Of a stretch of DNA of 7,521 nt, positions 129 to 7,521 are shown piece by piece. The notes below the pieces were generated by a model, which was given only the letters and a program-made list of their open reading frames with translations, did not search any database and was not told the origin of the DNA. Every line of letters begins with the position of its first letter. Within the stretch, counting starts at the first letter, position 1. Source of the DNA: Lachnospiraceae bacterium (lineage in GTDB: Bacteria; Bacillota_A; Clostridia; Lachnospirales; Lachnospiraceae); assembly GCA_017960415.1 (NCBI GenBank), contig JAGCZE010000328.1:1-7521 (forward strand). Reading direction: 5' to 3'. The position numbers were made by a program, and so were the translations under genes.

Positions 129-473
129 ATGAAAGCTGACAAAAAACCATTTGATGTCGACATTGATGATTACGGTGAGCGGATCAAGGAACTCAGGATC
201 AGCCGAGGTCTTACCCAAAACGATATCGCCAGGATGATGCACGTAACCCCGGGATATATCAGTAATATAGAAAACGGAAGAACTTCTATGTCACTGCGTA
301 TGCTTATATACTTTGCCAATGCAATGGAGATGTCTCTCGACACGCTTGTTGCCAATATCGATCCCGAGTATCAGGTCATGGCTATTGACAAGGAGATTCT
401 TGAGTGTATCTCCGGGATGAAACACGAGGATAAGATCAAACTTCACAAAACACTAAAGCTCTGGGTCAAGTAA
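129..473 (+). CDS. XRE/Cro-type helix-turn-helix transcriptional regulator
   Basis: This 114-residue cytoplasmic protein is a small DNA-binding regulator. Residues about 16-72 form the five-helix HTH_3 fold: the turn-bearing core runs from LTQNDIARMM (28-37) into the recognition helix TPGYISNIENGR (40-51), which matches the family pattern of 'sQ..lA...gvs...is..E.G'. The remaining 40 residues are charged and helical (KEILECISGMKHEDKIKLHK) and may serve in dimerisation. The start is supported by AAAGGAGA at 113-120, eight bases before the ATG. The stop codon lies in the loop of the downstream terminator. Beside an integrase such a gene could control excision or cargo expression, but host regulators of the same type are common and its target cannot be read from the sequence. 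Confidence 0.88.
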   Translation: MKADKKPFDVDIDDYGERIKELRISRGLTQNDIARMMHVTPGYISNIENGRTSMSLRMLIYFANAMEMSLDTLVANIDPEYQVMAIDKEILECISGMKHEDKIKLHKTLKLWVK

Positions 474-490
474 CCCAGAGCTTTTTGTTT
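455..490 (+). terminator. Rho-independent terminator shared by two convergent genes
   Basis: A perfect 12-bp inverted repeat, AAAGCTCTGGGT (455-466) and ACCCAGAGCTTT (473-484), encloses a six-base loop. The T-run from 482, interrupted by one G at 487, follows it on the + strand. The stem begins inside the last codons of the regulator gene, and its TAA stop (471-473) sits at the loop. On the opposite strand the hairpin comes directly after the stop of the secreted-protein gene (489-491), with a poorer run (CTTTAGTGTTTTG), so it probably terminates both transcripts. Confidence 0.9.
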
Positions 491-2444
491 ACTTCTTAAC
501 CGTGATCTTCATATAATCTTCTGAATGTACTGTATTGTAGTACTTTTTACCGTCTACAGTGATATAGGCGCGTACATACATTTCATATGTTTTGCCCTTC
601 TTCAGTTTCTTGCCGGTGTATGTGTAAGTCTTTGTTGTACCCTTCTTGATGTCCTTGAGTGTTTTGTATTCGAGGTCGGCTACGGGCGTGCCTTTCTTGT
701 ACTTGGCGTACATGATCTCGTAACCGCTGTAAGGTGCGCCGGTGATAGTGTCGCCGTCCCAGCTGAAGGACATCTTCTTGTACTTGTTCTTCGTGCAGTC
801 CATTTCGATGCTTACACTCTTCAGTGCCTTCTTGATCTGCTTGAGTGTAAGGGTCGTGGTTTCGGTACTCTTATCTTTATCCTTGCTGCCCGAATCCTTA
901 CCGGTATCCGTTGCGGGCTTTGCAACAGTCTTGGGTCTTACGATTAGCAGCGTCGATGCGGAGTTGCCGTACTTGTCTTTTACAGTGATCGTAAATGCGC
1001 CTTCAGTTCCCTTGCGGACGCAGTATCTTGCAAATGTAGTAGTCTTGGTACCGCCGGCAAGATAGATCTGACGCTTGCTCTGTGCCTTTGAGTCTTCCGA
1101 AGATGACCATTCGAAATCGTAGGCATATTCGTAGTCATACTCAAAATACTTGAGCTTCAGTGTGATCCAGGCATCCCTGTCTTCAGGTGAATAAACTACA
1201 TACTGAGTCTTCTCAAAATCAAGAGGACGGCAGTATACATGAACATTCCAGTACTCGGTATAGTTCTTGCTCTTTGAATTGAAGGTCAGAACCGCATCAC
1301 CGGGTTTCATTGCGCGTGATTCGTAGTCTGTGGAGCTGAAGCTTCCTACCTGACTGCGGGGTTCCAGAATGATCTTCTTATCGGATGTTGAAACCGTAAA
1401 TGTGGATTCTTTTGCGTAATTGGGTGTGATATTGGCATATCTGCCCACTTCGAGATCGATATTGTAATACGAATACTCCGGTTCCTTTACAGTCGCAATG
1501 ACCTGTATAGGTGCCTTCGGAACCTCGGGAACATAAATCTGCTGCACATAAGGTGTCGGAATAGGTGTTGTTACTTCCTTCGGAACCGGAATAGGCGTAG
1601 GTGTAGCAGTAGGGATCGGTGTTGCGGTAGGTACCGGTGTAGCGGTAGGAATCGGCTGCACCGGCTCCTGGGTAGGAATATCTGTAGGCTCCTGCCAAAT
1701 GGGATTCATCGGATCCTGGGGAACCTCTGTAGGTGTAGGTATCGCGGTAGGATCATCCCAGTCGGGATTCGCCGGTCCGCGGGGATTGTCTTCGGGAACA
1801 GGCGTTGCGGTAATATCGGTATCCGCCTCAGCTACAACATATTGGATCACATTCGCGGGTTCTCCGCTCTGTCTGCCGGTTGCTTCGCTATTGGTCTTCT
1901 CAAGGTTATCGGTAACCTGGAACTGACCGAAATCGATAGCGGCATTATTTGCGATCACATCATCCCAGTAATCAAAGAACTGGTCATTGGACGGAAGGTT
2001 AGAGTCATTATTATTGGCATCACCCTTAAAATACCCTGCAGTAAGCGTGGTCTGGATAAAATATATGACAGGACCGCCGTTGGCGCTGAAAACATCGTTG
2101 TTCGTCTGAACATCGCTGGAAGTAACCTCCCAGTAATCGATACCCTTGATGTACGGAACGGTCTCATTGCCCTGACCATAGTATCCGTAACGGGAATCCA
2201 GCAAATTACCGTTTTCATCAACAAACGTCAGAAGCTGATAGCTCTGATAGTCCTCTTCACTGCAAACAACAGAAATTGTGTCGCCCGGATAAGCAACAGT
2301 TCCTATCGGAACCGCTTCATGCGTATTGACTGTAAATACACCGTCTGCTTTTGCCCTATACGTCGGCAGAACGCCGATCACAAGCGCCAGAGCGCATGCC
2401 AATGCCAGTATACGCTGTAACATCTTCGCTGAATTAAGCTTCAT
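489..2444 (-). CDS. Exported multidomain protein with Pro/Thr stalk and C-terminal FN3-like domain
   Basis: This 651-residue protein begins with a Sec signal peptide: lysines near the N terminus, hydrophobic core ILALACALALVIGVL (12-26), and a probable AKA cleavage site before Asp34. Residues 34-205 are an unrecognised domain. Residues 211-320 are a Pro/Thr-rich stalk holding two copies of an NPxWxxPTxIPT-like motif (224-237 and 245-258) and then PTATP repeats. Residues about 325-405 and 406-505 look like two beta-rich Ig-like (Big-type) domains; a Lys/Ser/Thr linker follows, then an FN3-like domain (about 540-651) with GYEIMYAKYKKG and KGKTYEMYVRAY. There is no LPXTG motif, transmembrane tail or SLH domain, so it is probably released or held non-covalently; an adhesive or matrix role is inferred. 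The start has GGAGAGGAG 12 bases upstream and its own promoter. It converges on the regulator gene. Confidence 0.85.
   Translation of the reverse strand: MKLNSAKMLQRILALACALALVIGVLPTYRAKADGVFTVNTHEAVPIGTVAYPGDTISVVCSEEDYQSYQLLTFVDENGNLLDSRYGYYGQGNETVPYIKGIDYWEVTSSDVQTNNDVFSANGGPVIYFIQTTLTAGYFKGDANNNDSNLPSNDQFFDYWDDVIANNAAIDFGQFQVTDNLEKTNSEATGRQSGEPANVIQYVVAEADTDITATPVPEDNPRGPANPDWDDPTAIPTPTEVPQDPMNPIWQEPTDIPTQEPVQPIPTATPVPTATPIPTATPTPIPVPKEVTTPIPTPYVQQIYVPEVPKAPIQVIATVKEPEYSYYNIDLEVGRYANITPNYAKESTFTVSTSDKKIILEPRSQVGSFSSTDYESRAMKPGDAVLTFNSKSKNYTEYWNVHVYCRPLDFEKTQYVVYSPEDRDAWITLKLKYFEYDYEYAYDFEWSSSEDSKAQSKRQIYLAGGTKTTTFARYCVRKGTEGAFTITVKDKYGNSASTLLIVRPKTVAKPATDTGKDSGSKDKDKSTETTTLTLKQIKKALKSVSIEMDCTKNKYKKMSFSWDGDTITGAPYSGYEIMYAKYKKGTPVADLEYKTLKDIKKGTTKTYTYTGKKLKKGKTYEMYVRAYITVDGKKYYNTVHSEDYMKITVKK
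1600..1653 (-). repeat. Three 18-bp coding repeats of the Pro/Thr stalk
   Basis: Three consecutive 18-bp units at 1600-1617, 1618-1635 and 1636-1653 have the + strand pattern GGTGTAGC(A/G)GTAGG(G/T/A)(A)(T/C)C. Read on the minus strand they encode the six-residue PTATPx repeats of the stalk. Such in-frame repeats can expand or contract by slippage without breaking the gene, which would change stalk length. Confidence 0.8.
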
Positions 2445-2608: not shown

Positions 2609-3703
2609 TCATCTGAATATCTTCTCAAGACTGTCCGCGATCTTCTTCTGCTCATCCGGGTAAAGGTGTGAGTAGGTGTTGAGGGTGGTTTCAACCTTCA
2701 CATGCCCGAGACGTTCGGACACAAGCAAGGGAGTTACATTCATATTTATGAGCAGTGATGCGTGCGAATGTCTCAGGTCGTGTATCTTTATGCGCTTCAC
2801 TCCGGCTTTCCGTGCGGCCCGCGTCAGCGTATCCCTGACAGAATCGAAGCCTACGGGAAACAGCCTGTGTCCGATGCCTTCCGGATTCAGGCTGTGATAC
2901 TCCGTATTGATATAATCTCGTATTTCCTCTGTCAATGAAGAATTGATATAGACCACCCTCCTGCTCTTCCTGGTCTTCGGCGGCGAAATGATATCCTGCC
3001 CGTGATATCTGCGGTATGTTTTCGTTACCCGTATCATGCCGTTTTCAAGGTCGACATCATCCGGTGTCAGCGCCAGCAACTCACCAAGCCGCAGTCCCGT
3101 CCAATACAGCAGATTAAACATAAGGCGGTTTCGCTTACCCGTCACCGCGGTCATGAACCGGGCAAACTCATCTATTGTCCAAAAATTCACGCTTTTCGGA
3201 ACCGACTCCCCGATAGTACCCACGTGATCGCACGGATTGTTTTTTAGGCCGAAAAAACGCACTCCGTACTTGAACACAGCCGACATCACCGAATCCACCC
3301 GATGCAGGTAAAGCTGCGAATAATCCAGCTTCAGCATGCCGTTCTGCCAGCCCCTGATATCGGCAGGCGTGATTTCGTTGATCTTCCTGTTTCTGAAACA
3401 GGGTCTGATAAACCTTTCCGCTATAAGATCATAGCCTATAAAAGTGCTTGTACGCACACGAACCCTCTTCTCGTCCAAAAACGAATCGAGCAGCCGGTCA
3501 AAGCTGATATTATCGTATTTTTCTTCTTCGTGTACGCTTCCGGTAAATCCGGTCTGCTTCAATTCAAAGTCCCTGGCTTCCTGTTTCGACCTGAACTCGC
3601 CCAAAAGCGCCGGCGAGTCATTATCCCCGCTCTGCCAATATACCTTATACGTGTGATTATCTTTATCCGGAATGATCATGAAAAAACTCCCTGCCGCCGG
3701 CAT
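2609..3703 (-). CDS. Tyrosine recombinase / integrase
   Basis: This 364-residue site-specific recombinase cuts and rejoins DNA through a phosphotyrosine link and would integrate and excise the element. Residues 1-50 look like the three-stranded arm-binding domain (GSFFMI, TYKVYW, LGEFRSKQEA). Residues about 66-165 are the SAM-like core-binding domain, and 175-360 the catalytic domain. The full active-site set is visible: Arg205 in TGLRLGEL, Lys243 or Lys246 in PPKTRKSRR, His308 and Arg311 in HDLRH, His334 in RLGH, and nucleophile Tyr344 in NTYSH. Length and motifs fit the phage/Tn916-type integrases. The chosen start has AAAGGG (3714-3719) ten bases before it and keeps the first strand of the arm domain; Met9 (start at 3679, GGGAG at 3687-3691) is an alternative. 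It ends with TGA at 2609-2611. The gene appears intact. Confidence 0.95.
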   Translation of the reverse strand: MPAAGSFFMIIPDKDNHTYKVYWQSGDNDSPALLGEFRSKQEARDFELKQTGFTGSVHEEEKYDNISFDRLLDSFLDEKRVRVRTSTFIGYDLIAERFIRPCFRNRKINEITPADIRGWQNGMLKLDYSQLYLHRVDSVMSAVFKYGVRFFGLKNNPCDHVGTIGESVPKSVNFWTIDEFARFMTAVTGKRNRLMFNLLYWTGLRLGELLALTPDDVDLENGMIRVTKTYRRYHGQDIISPPKTRKSRRVVYINSSLTEEIRDYINTEYHSLNPEGIGHRLFPVGFDSVRDTLTRAARKAGVKRIKIHDLRHSHASLLINMNVTPLLVSERLGHVKVETTLNTYSHLYPDEQKKIADSLEKIFR

Positions 3704-3827: not shown

Positions 3828-3861
3828 AAAAATAGTATTTATTCGTATCTTTTATTTCATT

Positions 3862-3884
3862 CTATTGTTCTGACATAACAACGG
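3862..3884. other. Putative attR core site of the element
   Basis: TTGTT (3865-3869) and its inverse AACAA (3877-3881) flank a seven-base spacer, CTGACAT (3870-3876). With the outer bases the arms match at six of eight positions. Short inverted arms around a 6-8 base overlap are the usual core geometry of tyrosine recombinases. The site lies exactly where AT-rich element DNA gives way to GC-richer pilus-gene coding sequence, upstream of the integrase start. The matching copy that would confirm it (attL) is not in this window. Confidence 0.45.
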
Positions 3885-3979
3885 GTGCTGAAGGAACGGA
3901 TATCGGCGCTGCCGGCGACATCCCCGAAAACACCGCGGGTGCCGCAAGCGGAGCGGAACAGGCAGAGCCCGACAACTCG

Positions 3980-4738
3980 ATGGCCAGGATCTATCTCGGC
4001 GGTGCCGGAACCAATGTAAAAGGTCTCAAAGAGCTGATCGAAAATGAATTCAACGGCATCGAAGTTGTTATATTACCCAAACTTCCGGGCATCAACATCT
4101 CGAAAGACAACCGCGTAGCCGAAGAACATTCGACCGAACTGATCGCATGTATCGGTGCCAGCTTCCCGACTATCTCCTTCTATCGGAAGAGTGAGAAAGA
4201 AGCATTGTCGAAGACACTGATCATCAGCGCTGTCGGACTTGTGCTGGTTGCAGTGGCGGCGGTATTCATTGTGCTGAACGGCAAGACCGAATACGACAAG
4301 GCGATGGAACGAAAAGGAACTCTGGTTGCACAAAGAGATGCGCTTGAAGCCAAGGGTATAGAGATGCTCGAAGATGGGTACAATGCGGCTGCCGCAAGGT
4401 TCGCAAGGATCGAGGAAGCAGACGCTGGTACCTTCAATCATAACGAGAACTGGAACGACATTCTTAAAAGTCTGGAGCTCGAAAGTGTATCGAGCATGAC
4501 GGTATCTTCGGTTACATCGAACGAAACCGGACTGACCATGAATGTTACGGTCGGAAGTAAAGAAGATGCAGCAAAACTGCTTATGCAGCTGCAGAATATC
4601 CCGTATTTTGAGGAAGTTACGATAAGCTCCATTTCCGAGAATACCAGCGACGAAATGGGTATCAAGATCGTTTCGTTCTCACTTCAGTGCAAGTACAAGC
4701 TGCCTGATACAGATGCAGAAACCGGAAAGGAGGAGTGA
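3980..4738 (+). CDS. 5'-truncated PilM-PilN fusion (PilM C-terminus plus PilN)
   Basis: Type IV pilus inner-membrane platform protein; from the first ATG it has 252 residues. Residues 1-65 resemble the end of PilM, the actin-like cytoplasmic partner: RIYLGGAGTNVKGLKELI matches its 'iyLtGGgs.i.GL...l' phosphate-loop segment, and ELIACIGASF matches the closing helix. Residues 79-100 are a membrane span (TLIISAVGLVLVAVAAVFIV). Residues 104-135 are helical, and 160-242 form a PilN-like alpha/beta domain. The frame is open upstream to 3836, right after a TAG at 3833-3835, through an Ala/Gly/Glu-rich stretch with no ATG, GTG or TTG. The ATG has no ribosome binding site, so it is probably an internal codon of a gene cut by the element. 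It ends TGA-TAA, with the pilO ribosome binding site inside its last codons. The PilN assignment is firm from context and topology; the PilM part is likely. Confidence 0.75.
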   Translation: MARIYLGGAGTNVKGLKELIENEFNGIEVVILPKLPGINISKDNRVAEEHSTELIACIGASFPTISFYRKSEKEALSKTLIISAVGLVLVAVAAVFIVLNGKTEYDKAMERKGTLVAQRDALEAKGIEMLEDGYNAAAARFARIEEADAGTFNHNENWNDILKSLELESVSSMTVSSVTSNETGLTMNVTVGSKEDAAKLLMQLQNIPYFEEVTISSISENTSDEMGIKIVSFSLQCKYKLPDTDAETGKEE

Positions 4739-4744
4739 TAAGAC

Positions 4745-5530
4745 ATGAAGATCAGTCAAAAACATATTCAGTATATCCTGCTCCTTCTGATCGTTGTGAT
4801 CGCAGTATGCGCATACGAGTTCGGTTATGTCAAATATATTGAGAAAGCCAATCAGGTAAAGGAAGAAAATAAAGCTCTTGAGGCAAGGATCAATACACTT
4901 ACCGAAAAAGAATCCCACAGGGACGAATGGAATGCCGGAATAGACCAATTTGCAAAGGATTCACAGACTATTCTCACCAAATACGGCCCCGGCAATACAC
5001 CCGAGAAGAGCATCATGTTCATAAGATCCCTGGAAGAAGCTGCGGAAATGACTGGTCCGTCCATAGCTTTCAGCAATGACTCCGCTATTTTTGTGAGCAG
5101 CGAGACCGATGAAAACGGAAATCCTGTTGTAGAGCTTGACAGCAGCACTCTTTCGATCAACTATTCCACAACCTATGACGGATTGAAGAAGTGTATGGAT
5201 TTCATTAATTCATATCCCGAAAGAATGAACGTGAACGGCTTCAATGCCGCATACAATCATGAAAGCGGCCAGCTCTCGGGCAGCATGGTGATCAATCTTT
5301 ACGGTGTAAAGGATGCTGATCACAAGTACGTGGAGCCCACGATCTATGGTGTTGATCTTGGTGTGGACAATATTTTCGGAACATATGACCCGAACGCCGC
5401 ACAGCTTGAAGCAGGTGAGGCAAACGGTGCAGAAACAGGCAATCCGGAAACTGCCGAAACAGGCACAGAAGGCACCGAAACAGGCAGTACAGAGGCTTCT
5501 TCCGAAAATACCGAAACTGTTTCCGAATAA
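4745..5530 (+). CDS. pilO: PilO-like type IV pilus assembly protein
   Basis: This 261-residue bitopic membrane protein would pair with PilN to form the inner-membrane platform that links the cytoplasmic motor to the growing pilus. A short Lys-bearing N terminus leads into one membrane span (about 8-28, YILLLLIVVIAVCAYEFGYV), then a coiled coil (about 30-58) and an extracytoplasmic ferredoxin-like domain (about 70-195). The stretch SYPERMNVNGF and the following strand SGSMVINLYGV are typical of the PilO core. Residues 211-261 form an unusual acidic tail rich in Thr, Glu, Gly and Ala with ETG/TEG repeats, probably disordered and outside the cell. AAAGGAGG (4726-4733) stands 11 bases before the ATG and overlaps the end of the preceding gene, which suggests coupled translation. 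The last codons and the stop form the first copy of a tandem repeat. Confidence 0.85.
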   Translation: MKISQKHIQYILLLLIVVIAVCAYEFGYVKYIEKANQVKEENKALEARINTLTEKESHRDEWNAGIDQFAKDSQTILTKYGPGNTPEKSIMFIRSLEEAAEMTGPSIAFSNDSAIFVSSETDENGNPVVELDSSTLSINYSTTYDGLKKCMDFINSYPERMNVNGFNAAYNHESGQLSGSMVINLYGVKDADHKYVEPTIYGVDLGVDNIFGTYDPNAAQLEAGEANGAETGNPETAETGTEGTETGSTEASSENTETVSE

Positions 5531-5637
5531 TAAAACACCAGGATTGAAATTAGTACAGTTTCCGAATAACGGAACGTCCGGAAGTGATATAAGAACCGTT
5601 TCCGAATAACGGAACAGCCGGAATCGAAATAAGAACA
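5519..5637 (+). repeat. Three 39-40 bp tandem repeats starting at the pilO stop codon
   Basis: Copies begin at 5519 (39 bp), 5558 (40 bp) and 5598 (40 bp), each with GTTTCCGAATAA. Copies 2 and 3 share GTTTCCGAATAACGGAAC and match at about 34 of 40 positions; copy 1 is more diverged. In copy 1 the shared motif encodes Val-Ser-Glu-stop, the end of pilO. Copies 2 and 3 contain the inverted repeat TTCCG-AATAA-CGGAA, a possible small hairpin. They fill most of the pilO to prepilin gap; the remaining bases (5638-5672) hold the next ribosome binding site. Confidence 0.85.
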
Positions 5638-5672: not shown

Positions 5673-6914
5673 ATGAAGGAGTCACAGAAACGCGGATTTT
5701 TGCGTATACAACCGAATAATGCCGGCGTATCGCTGATCGAGGTGATAGTGGCTCTTCTCATCCTCGCTGTCATAACCGTTCCGCTGCTTCAGACATTCAC
5801 AACGGCAGCACGCGTCAACAGGGTAAATGCGCAGAAAACGGCCGCGGATGCCGTAGCAGCGAATATCATGGAGGCTGTAAAGGTATACGGCATCGAAGGT
5901 ACTGCCAGGGAATTGGATAAAGCCGAGAAAGATACCGAAGATCATTTAGTTACTCCTTCATGCTTCGGATTGAACGTAAACGGTGTTTCCTCGATCAGCG
6001 GCAGAGCAGTCAAAGATTATCTGGACAGGGCAAGAAAAGACTATGCCTGCACTGTCAGCGGCATTACCGAAGGAACCGGAAGCTTCAGTGTTGATATCAA
6101 TGTCAATACCGAACACAGCGGCAAGATCAGTTTCTCGGGCAGCGGCGAAGGATCCTACGATTATGCTGCATTCCGCGAGAATACGGTATTTATCAATCCT
6201 CTGGGTGTAGCGGACACTTATTATGATGAAATAGCCATAGAATGGTTTAAGGACAGCAACAGGAGGTACTACGAATATATTTCCTCACTTCCCGCAGACC
6301 ATCCAGATGCCGGAACCCATGTCACCCTTGCAGATGACAACAGGATCAAGAATGAGATGACCAGAGACTTCATCATAACGATCAGTAATAACACCGGGGA
6401 ATCGGTCAAGCCCTATAAAGTCAGTGCGAAAATAACATATACGATCTCTTCTTACGACGGACTGTTGGACGAAGAAACCACATTTACCGGATACAACAAT
6501 GAATTCGATCTTGATAAATTAAGCAATATTTATCTTTTCTACGTTCCGTTCCCTTATCTGGACGAAACTGAGGTCGAGGGCATGAAAAGCATGATATCCG
6601 GCGGTTATACCCCGACCTTTGGCATCACAGATGCTGATGCTGTTTATATCAACAGTTCCGTAGATCAGCAGATTGATTTTTATATCTCATTGCAGGGCAA
6701 TTGCGCAGATGATGATATTCTGTACGTTTATACCGATTCAAACAAGATCAATCTGTACAGCGATGTGGATCTGCTGAAGGTCGGTCCGGCATCATACAGT
6801 CCCACACTGATCAAACCCAAGGCAGACGATGCTGTGATCGCCGATGTCACGGTGACCGTAAAGGACAGCGAAGGAACAACGATCAGAGAATTAAATTCAA
6901 CTATCGAGCAGTAA
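5673..6914 (+). CDS. Prepilin-like minor pilin with long C-terminal domain (PilV/GspI-like)
   Basis: This 413-residue protein carries a class III (prepilin) signal: a basic leader ending at Gly18, cleavage before Val19, Glu at mature position 5 (Glu23), and the hydrophobic stem SLIEVIVALLILAVITVPLL. A prepilin peptidase encoded elsewhere would process it, and it would enter the pilus or pseudopilus as a minor subunit. The N-terminal helix continues to about residue 70. The rest is much longer than usual minor pilins (150-250 residues); residues 130-413 appear beta-rich, with repeated Asp/Asn/Tyr-rich strands and the closing DVTVTVKDSEGTTIREL. Cysteines at 97, 126 and 344 could form at most one disulfide. 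GGAGG (5658-5662) lies ten bases before the ATG. Position after pilO agrees with minor-pilin genes of pil operons; the exact PilV/GspI/PilW-type label is uncertain. Confidence 0.82.
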   Translation: MKESQKRGFLRIQPNNAGVSLIEVIVALLILAVITVPLLQTFTTAARVNRVNAQKTAADAVAANIMEAVKVYGIEGTARELDKAEKDTEDHLVTPSCFGLNVNGVSSISGRAVKDYLDRARKDYACTVSGITEGTGSFSVDINVNTEHSGKISFSGSGEGSYDYAAFRENTVFINPLGVADTYYDEIAIEWFKDSNRRYYEYISSLPADHPDAGTHVTLADDNRIKNEMTRDFIITISNNTGESVKPYKVSAKITYTISSYDGLLDEETTFTGYNNEFDLDKLSNIYLFYVPFPYLDETEVEGMKSMISGGYTPTFGITDADAVYINSSVDQQIDFYISLQGNCADDDILYVYTDSNKINLYSDVDLLKVGPASYSPTLIKPKADDAVIADVTVTVKDSEGTTIRELNSTIEQ

Positions 6915-6963
6915 ACAGTTGATTTTCATGACTGTTCAGGCTTTATGAGGAAAGGTGAGTAAG

Positions 6964-7521
6964 ATGAGTAGATCAGCACATGTCAATAATAAGGGTTCGG
7001 CTCTTGTGGCCGTTATCATCAGCATGCTTTTTATTGGCATAATTGCGGCTATCGTTCTGTCTCTGACACGTTCCAACCTGAGCAATTCGGAATCAAACAA
7101 GAACAGCTCGTCCAATTTTTATCAGGGCGAGGTCTACATGGATGAACTGCGCAGTGAGCTGAAAAAGCTTGCGGAGGTCGCAAAAAAGAGTGCTTACGAA
7201 AAATGGCTTAAATCCTATGTTGCAGGTTACTCTGAGATGTCTTCCACCGATCAGGAAAGCAAATTTTACGAGCTGTTTGCGGAAGAATTCCAGAAGCTGA
7301 TCGATACAACAACGATTTCCAAAGAATATGATGTCCTCGATGCAGACGTAAACGGAACCGGTACACCCTTAAGCAGCGCGGATATTGAAATAGAGCGTGA
7401 AGACGGTGAGATCAAAGGCATTATCATCAAAGGAATCTCGCTGACCAGGGAAGATGAACAGGGCGACATTACCACAATAAGTACAGACCTGTCATTGACC
7501 TTCCAGATACCCCCGGTCAGC
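6964..7521 (+). CDS. PilX/GspK-like pilus-assembly protein, 3' end beyond window
   Basis: The frame is open from the ATG to the window edge (186 codons, no stop). The N terminus has a short polar leader, MSRSAHVNNKG, followed by SALVAVIISMLFIGIIAAIVL, a prepilin-like hydrophobic stem that would be cut after Gly11. Mature position 5 is Ala rather than Glu, as is known for GspK/PilX-type tip pseudopilins. The following region is charged and helical (about 50-110), then shows beta-like strands (IEIEREDGEIKGIIIKGI). AAAGGTGAG (6951-6959) precedes the start by four bases. It is 49 bases downstream of the prepilin gene on the same strand, so it is very likely cotranscribed. Assignment rests on the N-terminal pattern and the neighbours. 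Confidence 0.75.
   Translation, partial: MSRSAHVNNKGSALVAVIISMLFIGIIAAIVLSLTRSNLSNSESNKNSSSNFYQGEVYMDELRSELKKLAEVAKKSAYEKWLKSYVAGYSEMSSTDQESKFYELFAEEFQKLIDTTTISKEYDVLDADVNGTGTPLSSADIEIEREDGEIKGIIIKGISLTREDEQGDITTISTDLSLTFQIPPVS

Follow-up and report, generated by a model that had tools for sequence, protein, structure and literature searches.

The 7,521-base stretch analysed here (the window), from an uncultured relative of gut Lachnospiraceae, carries the 3′ part of a fused pilM-pilN gene, cut off from its 5′ end beside a complete tyrosine recombinase (integrase) gene, and this observation of an interrupted gene is confirmed. Integrase-mediated recombination inside pilM-pilN is well supported, as read from the junctions at a 21-base core. 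Among the explanations weighed, we favour site-specific exchange of pilus 3′ cassettes at this core, to which the sequences may lend just short of an even chance, and plain insertion of a mobile element is the nearest alternative. We infer that exchange would take place in living cells, that both cassettes would work and that the tip of the pilus would change.

A pilM-pilN frame without its 5′ end

As a preliminary description of this DNA had stated, the frame that ends at position 4738 has no plausible start and is open back to a TAG at 3833-3835, which lies 130 bases from the integrase with its start codon at 3703 (Table 1). The ATG at 3980, said there to lack a ribosome binding site, is preceded by no Shine-Dalgarno match (by eye), and since the same position is a leucine in the intact relative L003 (LARIYIGG), we regard it as an internal residue. 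That the frame belongs to a pilM-pilN fusion was borne out by intact relatives, which encode one continuous PilM-PilN protein (613 aa in L002, 592 aa in L003) and carry the whole fusion rather than a separate pilM and a pilN starting near 3980. Pfam placed PilM_2 at residues 17-232 and PilN at residues 535-601 of L002 and found PilN alone in the window frame; no pilM 5′ part was found in the window. The downstream genes have good ribosome binding sites when inspected by eye, as had also been noted.

Scanning the contigs with the open frame of the window gave 4 loci from 54 matched stretches. Within the genus, 11 of 24 genomes match PilM-PilN at E 0.001, nine strongly and two weakly and distantly. 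An unbroken pilM-pilN frame of 598-689 aa is present in 8 of the 24 genomes, and in a ninth, G003, the gene is split at two contig ends with overlapping sequence (overlap judged by eye). The 3′ part of such a split gene is L004, whose bin has the 5′ part at the end of a second contig, with overlapping sequence. In one genome, G063, two contigs each carry a match to the 3′ half (L042 and L050) in an unbroken 556-aa frame; one of the two matches is a full pilM-pilN gene (L106).

Table 1. Features of the window, with the evidence for each name
Feature	Position	Strand	Evidence and remarks
Xre-type helix-turn-helix regulator	129..473	+	Pfam HTH_3, E=2.2e-13
fn3-containing surface protein, secreted-looking	489..2444	-	fn3, E=1.3e-5; conserved beside the integrase
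Tyrosine recombinase (integrase), complete	2609..3703	-	Pfam Phage_integrase, E=1.1e-23, and Phage_int_SAM_3; PHROG 1 integrase, E=8.7e-73
ATATTTATGCAA	3800..3811		Between integrase and core; identical in the window and L001 (alignment)
Putative recombination core	3867..3887	+	GTT, 7-base spacer CTGACAT (3870-3876) and right arm AACAACGGGTG; identical in the window, L001 and L002, with unalike flanks
pilM-pilN fusion, 3′ part without start codon	3869..4738	+	SDITTG linker, PilM C-terminal subdomain, transmembrane helix and PilN (E=8.3e-7); aligns with L002 from SDITTG (residue 320)
PilO-like membrane protein	4745..5530	+	Named from position and look; no family match in Pfam, NCBIfam or PHROG; four relatives have a counterpart in this position, with 55-67% identity over all pairs
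PilV-like minor pilin	5673..6914	+	N_methyl, E=1.2e-5; NCBIfam PilV at 31.6 bits, under its cut-off of 52.2
PilX-like large minor pilin	6955..7521, runs past the window end	+	Named from position; no Pfam match

The Xre-type regulator is the left neighbour of the module and probably lies outside it; its homologues, 53-55% identical and present in 3 of 9 genomes searched, are close to genes that look like those for ribosomal proteins or tRNA synthetases (by eye). The integrase contains the stretches HDLRHSH and NTYSHL, which we take to be catalytic, and its N-terminus seemingly resembles arm-binding domains, of which Pfam called none. An AT-rich stretch of 163 bases separates its start from the core, and the motif ATATTTATGCAA within the intergenic DNA is a possible arm-type binding site of the kind found in attP arms. 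A promoter scan at the junction returned 2 weak sites against 0.8 expected, and an Rfam scan of the window gave no match at E 0.1. At 5515-5631, between the PilO-like gene and the next pilin gene, there are three imperfect direct repeats of 38-40 bases with GTTTCCGAATAA or GTTTCCGAATAAC, which are copies of the end of the PilO-like gene including its stop codon.

A 21-base core in the pilM-pilN linker

The core, GTTCTGACATAACAACGGGTG, is identical in the window, in L001 (an interrupted locus in the Lachnospiraceae metagenome bin RUI154) and in L002 (an intact fusion in the same bin), and it is the longest block common to the three regions; the maximum in 500 dinucleotide shuffles was 8. Its left flank is integrase-side DNA in the window and L001 and pilM coding sequence in L002, and to its right lie three different pilM-pilN linkers, all in frame. 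The L001 site is a perfect 9-7-9 inverted repeat, CCCGTTGTT-CTGACAT-AACAACGGG, which, judged by its sequence, is the shape of a tyrosine-recombinase crossover site; only 6 of 500 shuffles of the region produced an equally good inverted repeat at any place. In the window and L002, whose sites are poor inverted repeats, 6 of the 9 left-arm positions match (by eye). No second core was found in the window (next best 14/19) or in L064, a further contig of RUI154 (next best 13/19), where the contigs end early.

The core is in frame in both L002 and the window, permitting restoration of the frame. The linker from the core to the PilM motif stays in frame in the window and L001 despite its different lengths, the cassette genes are open at both loci, and no base of the core differs between loci whose PilN parts share 66-79% identity. 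These features, together with the intact integrase frame of the window, speak against an old fixed remnant, that is, a second pilus locus deprived of its 5′ end by a single earlier recombination and not subject to rearrangement since. We consider such a remnant improbable, even though the two unbroken frames of equal length on two contigs of G063 indicate that second loci may exist and the left neighbours of the window and RUI154 loci differ.

Where a crossover at the core would fall in the protein was examined on an AlphaFold model of L002, built with 25 aligned sequences (mean pLDDT 80). The core encodes residues 320-325, inside a segment (296-362) that is mostly below a pLDDT of 50 (residues 296-305, 310-312 and 314-362) and lies between a helix ending at residue 290 and a strand starting at residue 365. 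A Foldseek search with this model returned PilM chains or a pilus machine model as its ten best matches (5eou first, 2ych tenth). The core is thus predicted to code for part of a disordered loop in the PilM fold, and a crossover there should cut the fold at a place that tolerates many linkers.

A second interrupted locus and an intact fusion in one bin

In RUI154, L001 carries an integrase gene truncated at the end of the contig, whose product is 67% identical to that of the window (residues 4-271), followed by a pil 3′ half. L064 ends in the missing integrase C-terminus and encodes a surface protein 76% identical to the fn3 protein of the window. L001 and L064 overlap by 11 bases at homologous codons (ERL), and because of this short overlap and the match to the gene order of the window, the two contigs would abut. 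From this alignment of loci, the order of surface protein, integrase, core and pil 3′ half appears conserved between the window and RUI154, with different left neighbours: a GGDEF response regulator in RUI154 versus the Xre regulator in the window. The idea that the GGDEF regulator stands at its ancestral place in RUI154, which would make the integrase locus fixed, was rejected. Its two best homologues (in G008 and G011) lie between SUF-like and secG/smpB-like genes (by eye), and neither of these places in RUI154 has a GGDEF gene.

Two kinds of copy are present in RUI154, on contigs that both have multi=7.0 in their titles: L002 is an intact fusion that contains the core, and L001 is a 3′ half preceded by integrase and core. 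The bin yielded a single pilM 5′ half but two 3′ halves, one in the intact gene and the other capped by the integrase. Between L001 and L002, the PilN parts are 79% identical, the PilO-like proteins 61% and the PilV-like proteins 32%. As RUI154 is a metagenome bin, its loci could come from two strains; the contig ends of L001 and L002 show no overlap, and no contig shows both loci or their orientation. The PilC protein of G003 has matches in RUI154 and G002 at 22-23% only, so pil contigs may be missing from these bins, and an absent pilM 5′ fragment proves little there.

The search for the other gene half

With the 5′ half of L002 as query, the protein collection yielded at least 41 proteins, intact fusions longer than about 570 aa being outside the range of the search. 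None of the 41 listed relatives is a pilM 5′ half ending at the core or has SDI in the linker (a script was run on all 41 and eight were read by eye); in four, SDI occurs within the PilN part, from residue 421 onwards. Two short proteins, P0134 with 309 aa and the more remote P0167 with 299 aa, were weighed as candidates for the missing pilM 5′ fragment and rejected, as neither reaches the position of the core or has SDI; other truncated forms may exist. Three further proteins, P0132, P0133 and P0135, look cut by contig ends (all three are named partial). To the left of the integrase, neither the 2.6 kb of the window nor the 4.1 kb of RUI154 contains pilM; the left end of an element would lie outside these stretches.

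These results bear on the proposal in the preliminary description that an element sits inside the gene and that its excision restores a full PilM-PilN protein. The interruption beside the integrase stood up: its boundary is exact, at a short core present in an intact relative as well. Placing the other half of the gene at the far end of an excisable element did not fare as well, with 0 of the 41 listed 5′ relatives ending at the core and no pilM in the left flanks; nor is an intact fusion together with a capped copy in one genome, as in RUI154, predicted by a simple excision switch. The same observations weigh on simple insertion in general, in which a mobile element at the core splits pilM-pilN, the 5′ half lies beyond the contig and excision would restore the gene, whether the element is a regulatory switch of the sigK/skin kind or a parasite blocking the pilus. 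We judge simple insertion possible, if somewhat doubtful: the precise core adjoins a phage-type integrase and is uninterrupted in L002, the ribosome binding sites downstream look good by eye, and prophages that disrupt the competence pilus gene comYC are documented in the portion of PMC4774983 available to us. Further against it, the genes next to the two loci on the left encode a regulator and a GGDEF protein, and PHROGs gave no structural phage protein among the five proteins tested.

Three integrase-side junctions were seen, a small number: two in DNA (window, L001) and one known only from protein sequence (P0125). Of the 32 residues that end with SDITTG, P0125 shares 31 with the integrase-side reading of L001. 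Over the first three 30-residue segments from SDITTG, L002 matches it at 25, 30 and 29 residues and L001 at 9, 14 and 23. P0125 is thus an RUI154-type left end joined to an L002-type linker and membrane part, and it becomes more L001-like towards the C-terminus, which suggests that homologous recombination between cassettes also shapes these genes. One more integrase-side junction is likely, as the 3′ half P0126 and the integrase P0004 lie on contigs of equal length and so are seemingly on one contig of 79,950 bases, which may also contain an intact fusion. The loci of the system are on short metagenome contigs, and chimeric contigs joined at a short repeat by assembly or binning could in principle mimic such junctions. 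We hold an artefact of this kind to be highly improbable, given the same gene order in diverged sequence in the window and RUI154 (in the latter over two contigs abutting by 11 bases) and P0125 as a third junction.

Distribution of the core and kinship of the integrase

An exact 18-base match to the core occurs in 1 of 397 family genomes, namely RUI154, in two copies. The best site around pilM-pilN in eight other genomes (G016 not being one of these eight) matches at 13-14 of 21 positions, compared with 13 in L064, which has no pil gene. Because the exact match is confined to RUI154 and the sites in the eight other genomes are weak, the core seems to go with the integrase. Mobile elements usually target sequence that is conserved by their hosts. 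The target here is a variable linker, which speaks for the site belonging to the system, but an empty site in a closely related, element-free host may simply be missing from the data.

No integrase near the 65% of P0004 other than that of RUI154 itself was found in the 24 genus genomes, and a search of 395 relatives brought up no other close 3′ half. In viral contigs, neither the core nor the pil 3′ half was found, and the window integrase as a single query had no match; an alignment of integrases retrieved 33 loci from them at 23-44% identity. Testing five proteins against PHROGs gave integrase and regulator-type matches, with the GGDEF protein falling into families of unknown function, and no structural phage protein among the five; the stretch to the left of the core measures only 3.9 kb.

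Integrases of the same broad family (46-50% identical) are present in three genus genomes (L032, L033 and L034), divergent beside a trypsin-like protease gene (by eye). The DNA behind the integrase differs between L032 and L033, possibly another pairing of a recombinase with a gene. No inverted-repeat core was found beside the related integrases L031-L034, in a scan that was also negative for the window and L002 and so carries little weight.

Divergence and base composition of the pilin genes

Across all pairs of five loci, the PilV-like proteins are 32-39% identical versus 64-79% for PilN, and the N-termini of the PilX-like proteins are 36-48% identical. A recombination site just upstream of divergent pilins, with its own recombinase, would give gut bacteria a concrete way of exchanging or silencing the tips of their pili, and DNA rearrangement may turn the pilus off or fit it with other parts. 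Among the matches listed in open-licence literature, covering titles and the starts of abstracts, we found no paper on recombination inside pilM or pilN.

Base composition was considered as a mark of the L002 cassette being foreign from the core on and was rejected, since third-position G+C falls late in pilN and not at the core, in L003 as in L002. In favour of the idea, the genes after pilN have a third-position G+C of 0.31-0.35 in L002 and 0.44-0.46 in L001, against an RUI154 mean of 0.53 (sd 0.04, 31 genes), so that L002 is the farther from the RUI154 level. In L002, L003 and RUI380, the genes after pilN mostly have lower third-position G+C than the genes before it. The pil operon of RUI380 has, at 7672-8513 of L073, small nucleotidyltransferase-like and HEPN-like genes between the PilO-like and PilV-like genes, which look by eye like an MNT-HEPN toxin-antitoxin pair.

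A model of cassette exchange

In the model that we favour, the core in the linker of the fused pilM-pilN would be the crossover site, and the window would show one side of the system. The adjacent tyrosine recombinase would link alternative 3′ cassettes, each made up of the PilM C-terminus, PilN, the PilO-like protein and the minor pilins, to alternative left partners, which are a pilM 5′ half and the control region of the recombinase itself. Joined to the integrase side, the cassette of the window would be headless and silent; recombination with a core beside a pilM 5′ half would activate it and silence or displace the earlier one. The geometry could be an inversion, as in a shufflon, or an integrating element that brings its own gene 3′ end and displaces that of the host.

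The case for exchange is built from the precise junctions, the common core, the intact recombinase frame of the window, the open cassette genes and the two kinds of left partner for the same core. The single 5′ half with two 3′ halves in RUI154 and the chimera P0125 fit cassette exchange, or an element with its own 3′ end, better than a lone interruption. Against exchange stand the phage-type integrase and the conserved attP-arm-like motif, which are more usual for integration and excision than for inversion. The poor inverted repeats of the window and L002 sites and the single core per locus also count against it, and base composition does not change at the core. A stronger form of the model, which we think unlikely, is a dedicated chromosomal switch with a single constant pilM 5′ half, to which the recombinase would attach whole alternative 3′ operons (PilM tail, PilN, PilO-like protein, minor pilins and possibly a tip protein), producing alternative type IV pili through a single crossover site in a disordered loop.

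Comparison with known rearrangement systems

The element e14 in icd is an example of target-gene 3′ ends being replaced by an incoming element, and the nifD and comK elements interrupt coding frames; Moraxella Piv is a further DNA-rearranging system for comparison. An element of the e14 type would account for the presence of both an intact hybrid gene and, on the opposite side, a remnant capped by the integrase; L002 could be the hybrid gene, and L001 and L002 would then be the two ends of one element. In the skin element of C. difficile, recombinase-coding DNA interrupts the sigK frame, and its recombinase resembles large serine recombinases (PMC5025042, from the part of the text available). 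Our locus shares the interruption of a coding frame by recombinase-coding DNA and differs in its tyrosine recombinase and in the other gene half, which was not found in the flanks or among the 41 listed relatives. The comYC prophages, as far as the accessible text of PMC4774983 describes them, are likewise integrase-borne and interrupt a pilus gene, with matching positions in different species, and elements inserted in comM are described in the part of PMC11472951 available to us. Our system differs from the comYC prophages in the absence of structural phage proteins among the five tested, in its variable linker as the target and in the presence of the core only in the one searched genome with a close (67%) integrase.

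There is also a likeness in layout to the shufflons of IncI plasmids (rci/sfx, pilV), in which, according to the sources as far as they were available, a tyrosine recombinase acts on a crossover in a pilus gene so that a constant 5′ part meets different 3′ parts. The sfx sites have a 7-base core, a conserved right arm and a variable left arm in the accessible portions of PMC9045228 and PMC11852207. The three sites compared here have an sfx-like layout, although a set of integrase attB and attR sites could look identical, and the recombinase adjoins the crossover site, at the distance given above in the window and in the same order in L001. The system differs from a shufflon in having one site per locus (window 1, L001 1, L064 0), on contigs that end before the region where more could lie. 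It also has an integrase that groups with phage integrases, and the likeness to the Rci system drawn here is one of site and layout. Finally, the crossover here lies in the assembly gene pilM-pilN, so that an exchange would change the downstream genes as well.
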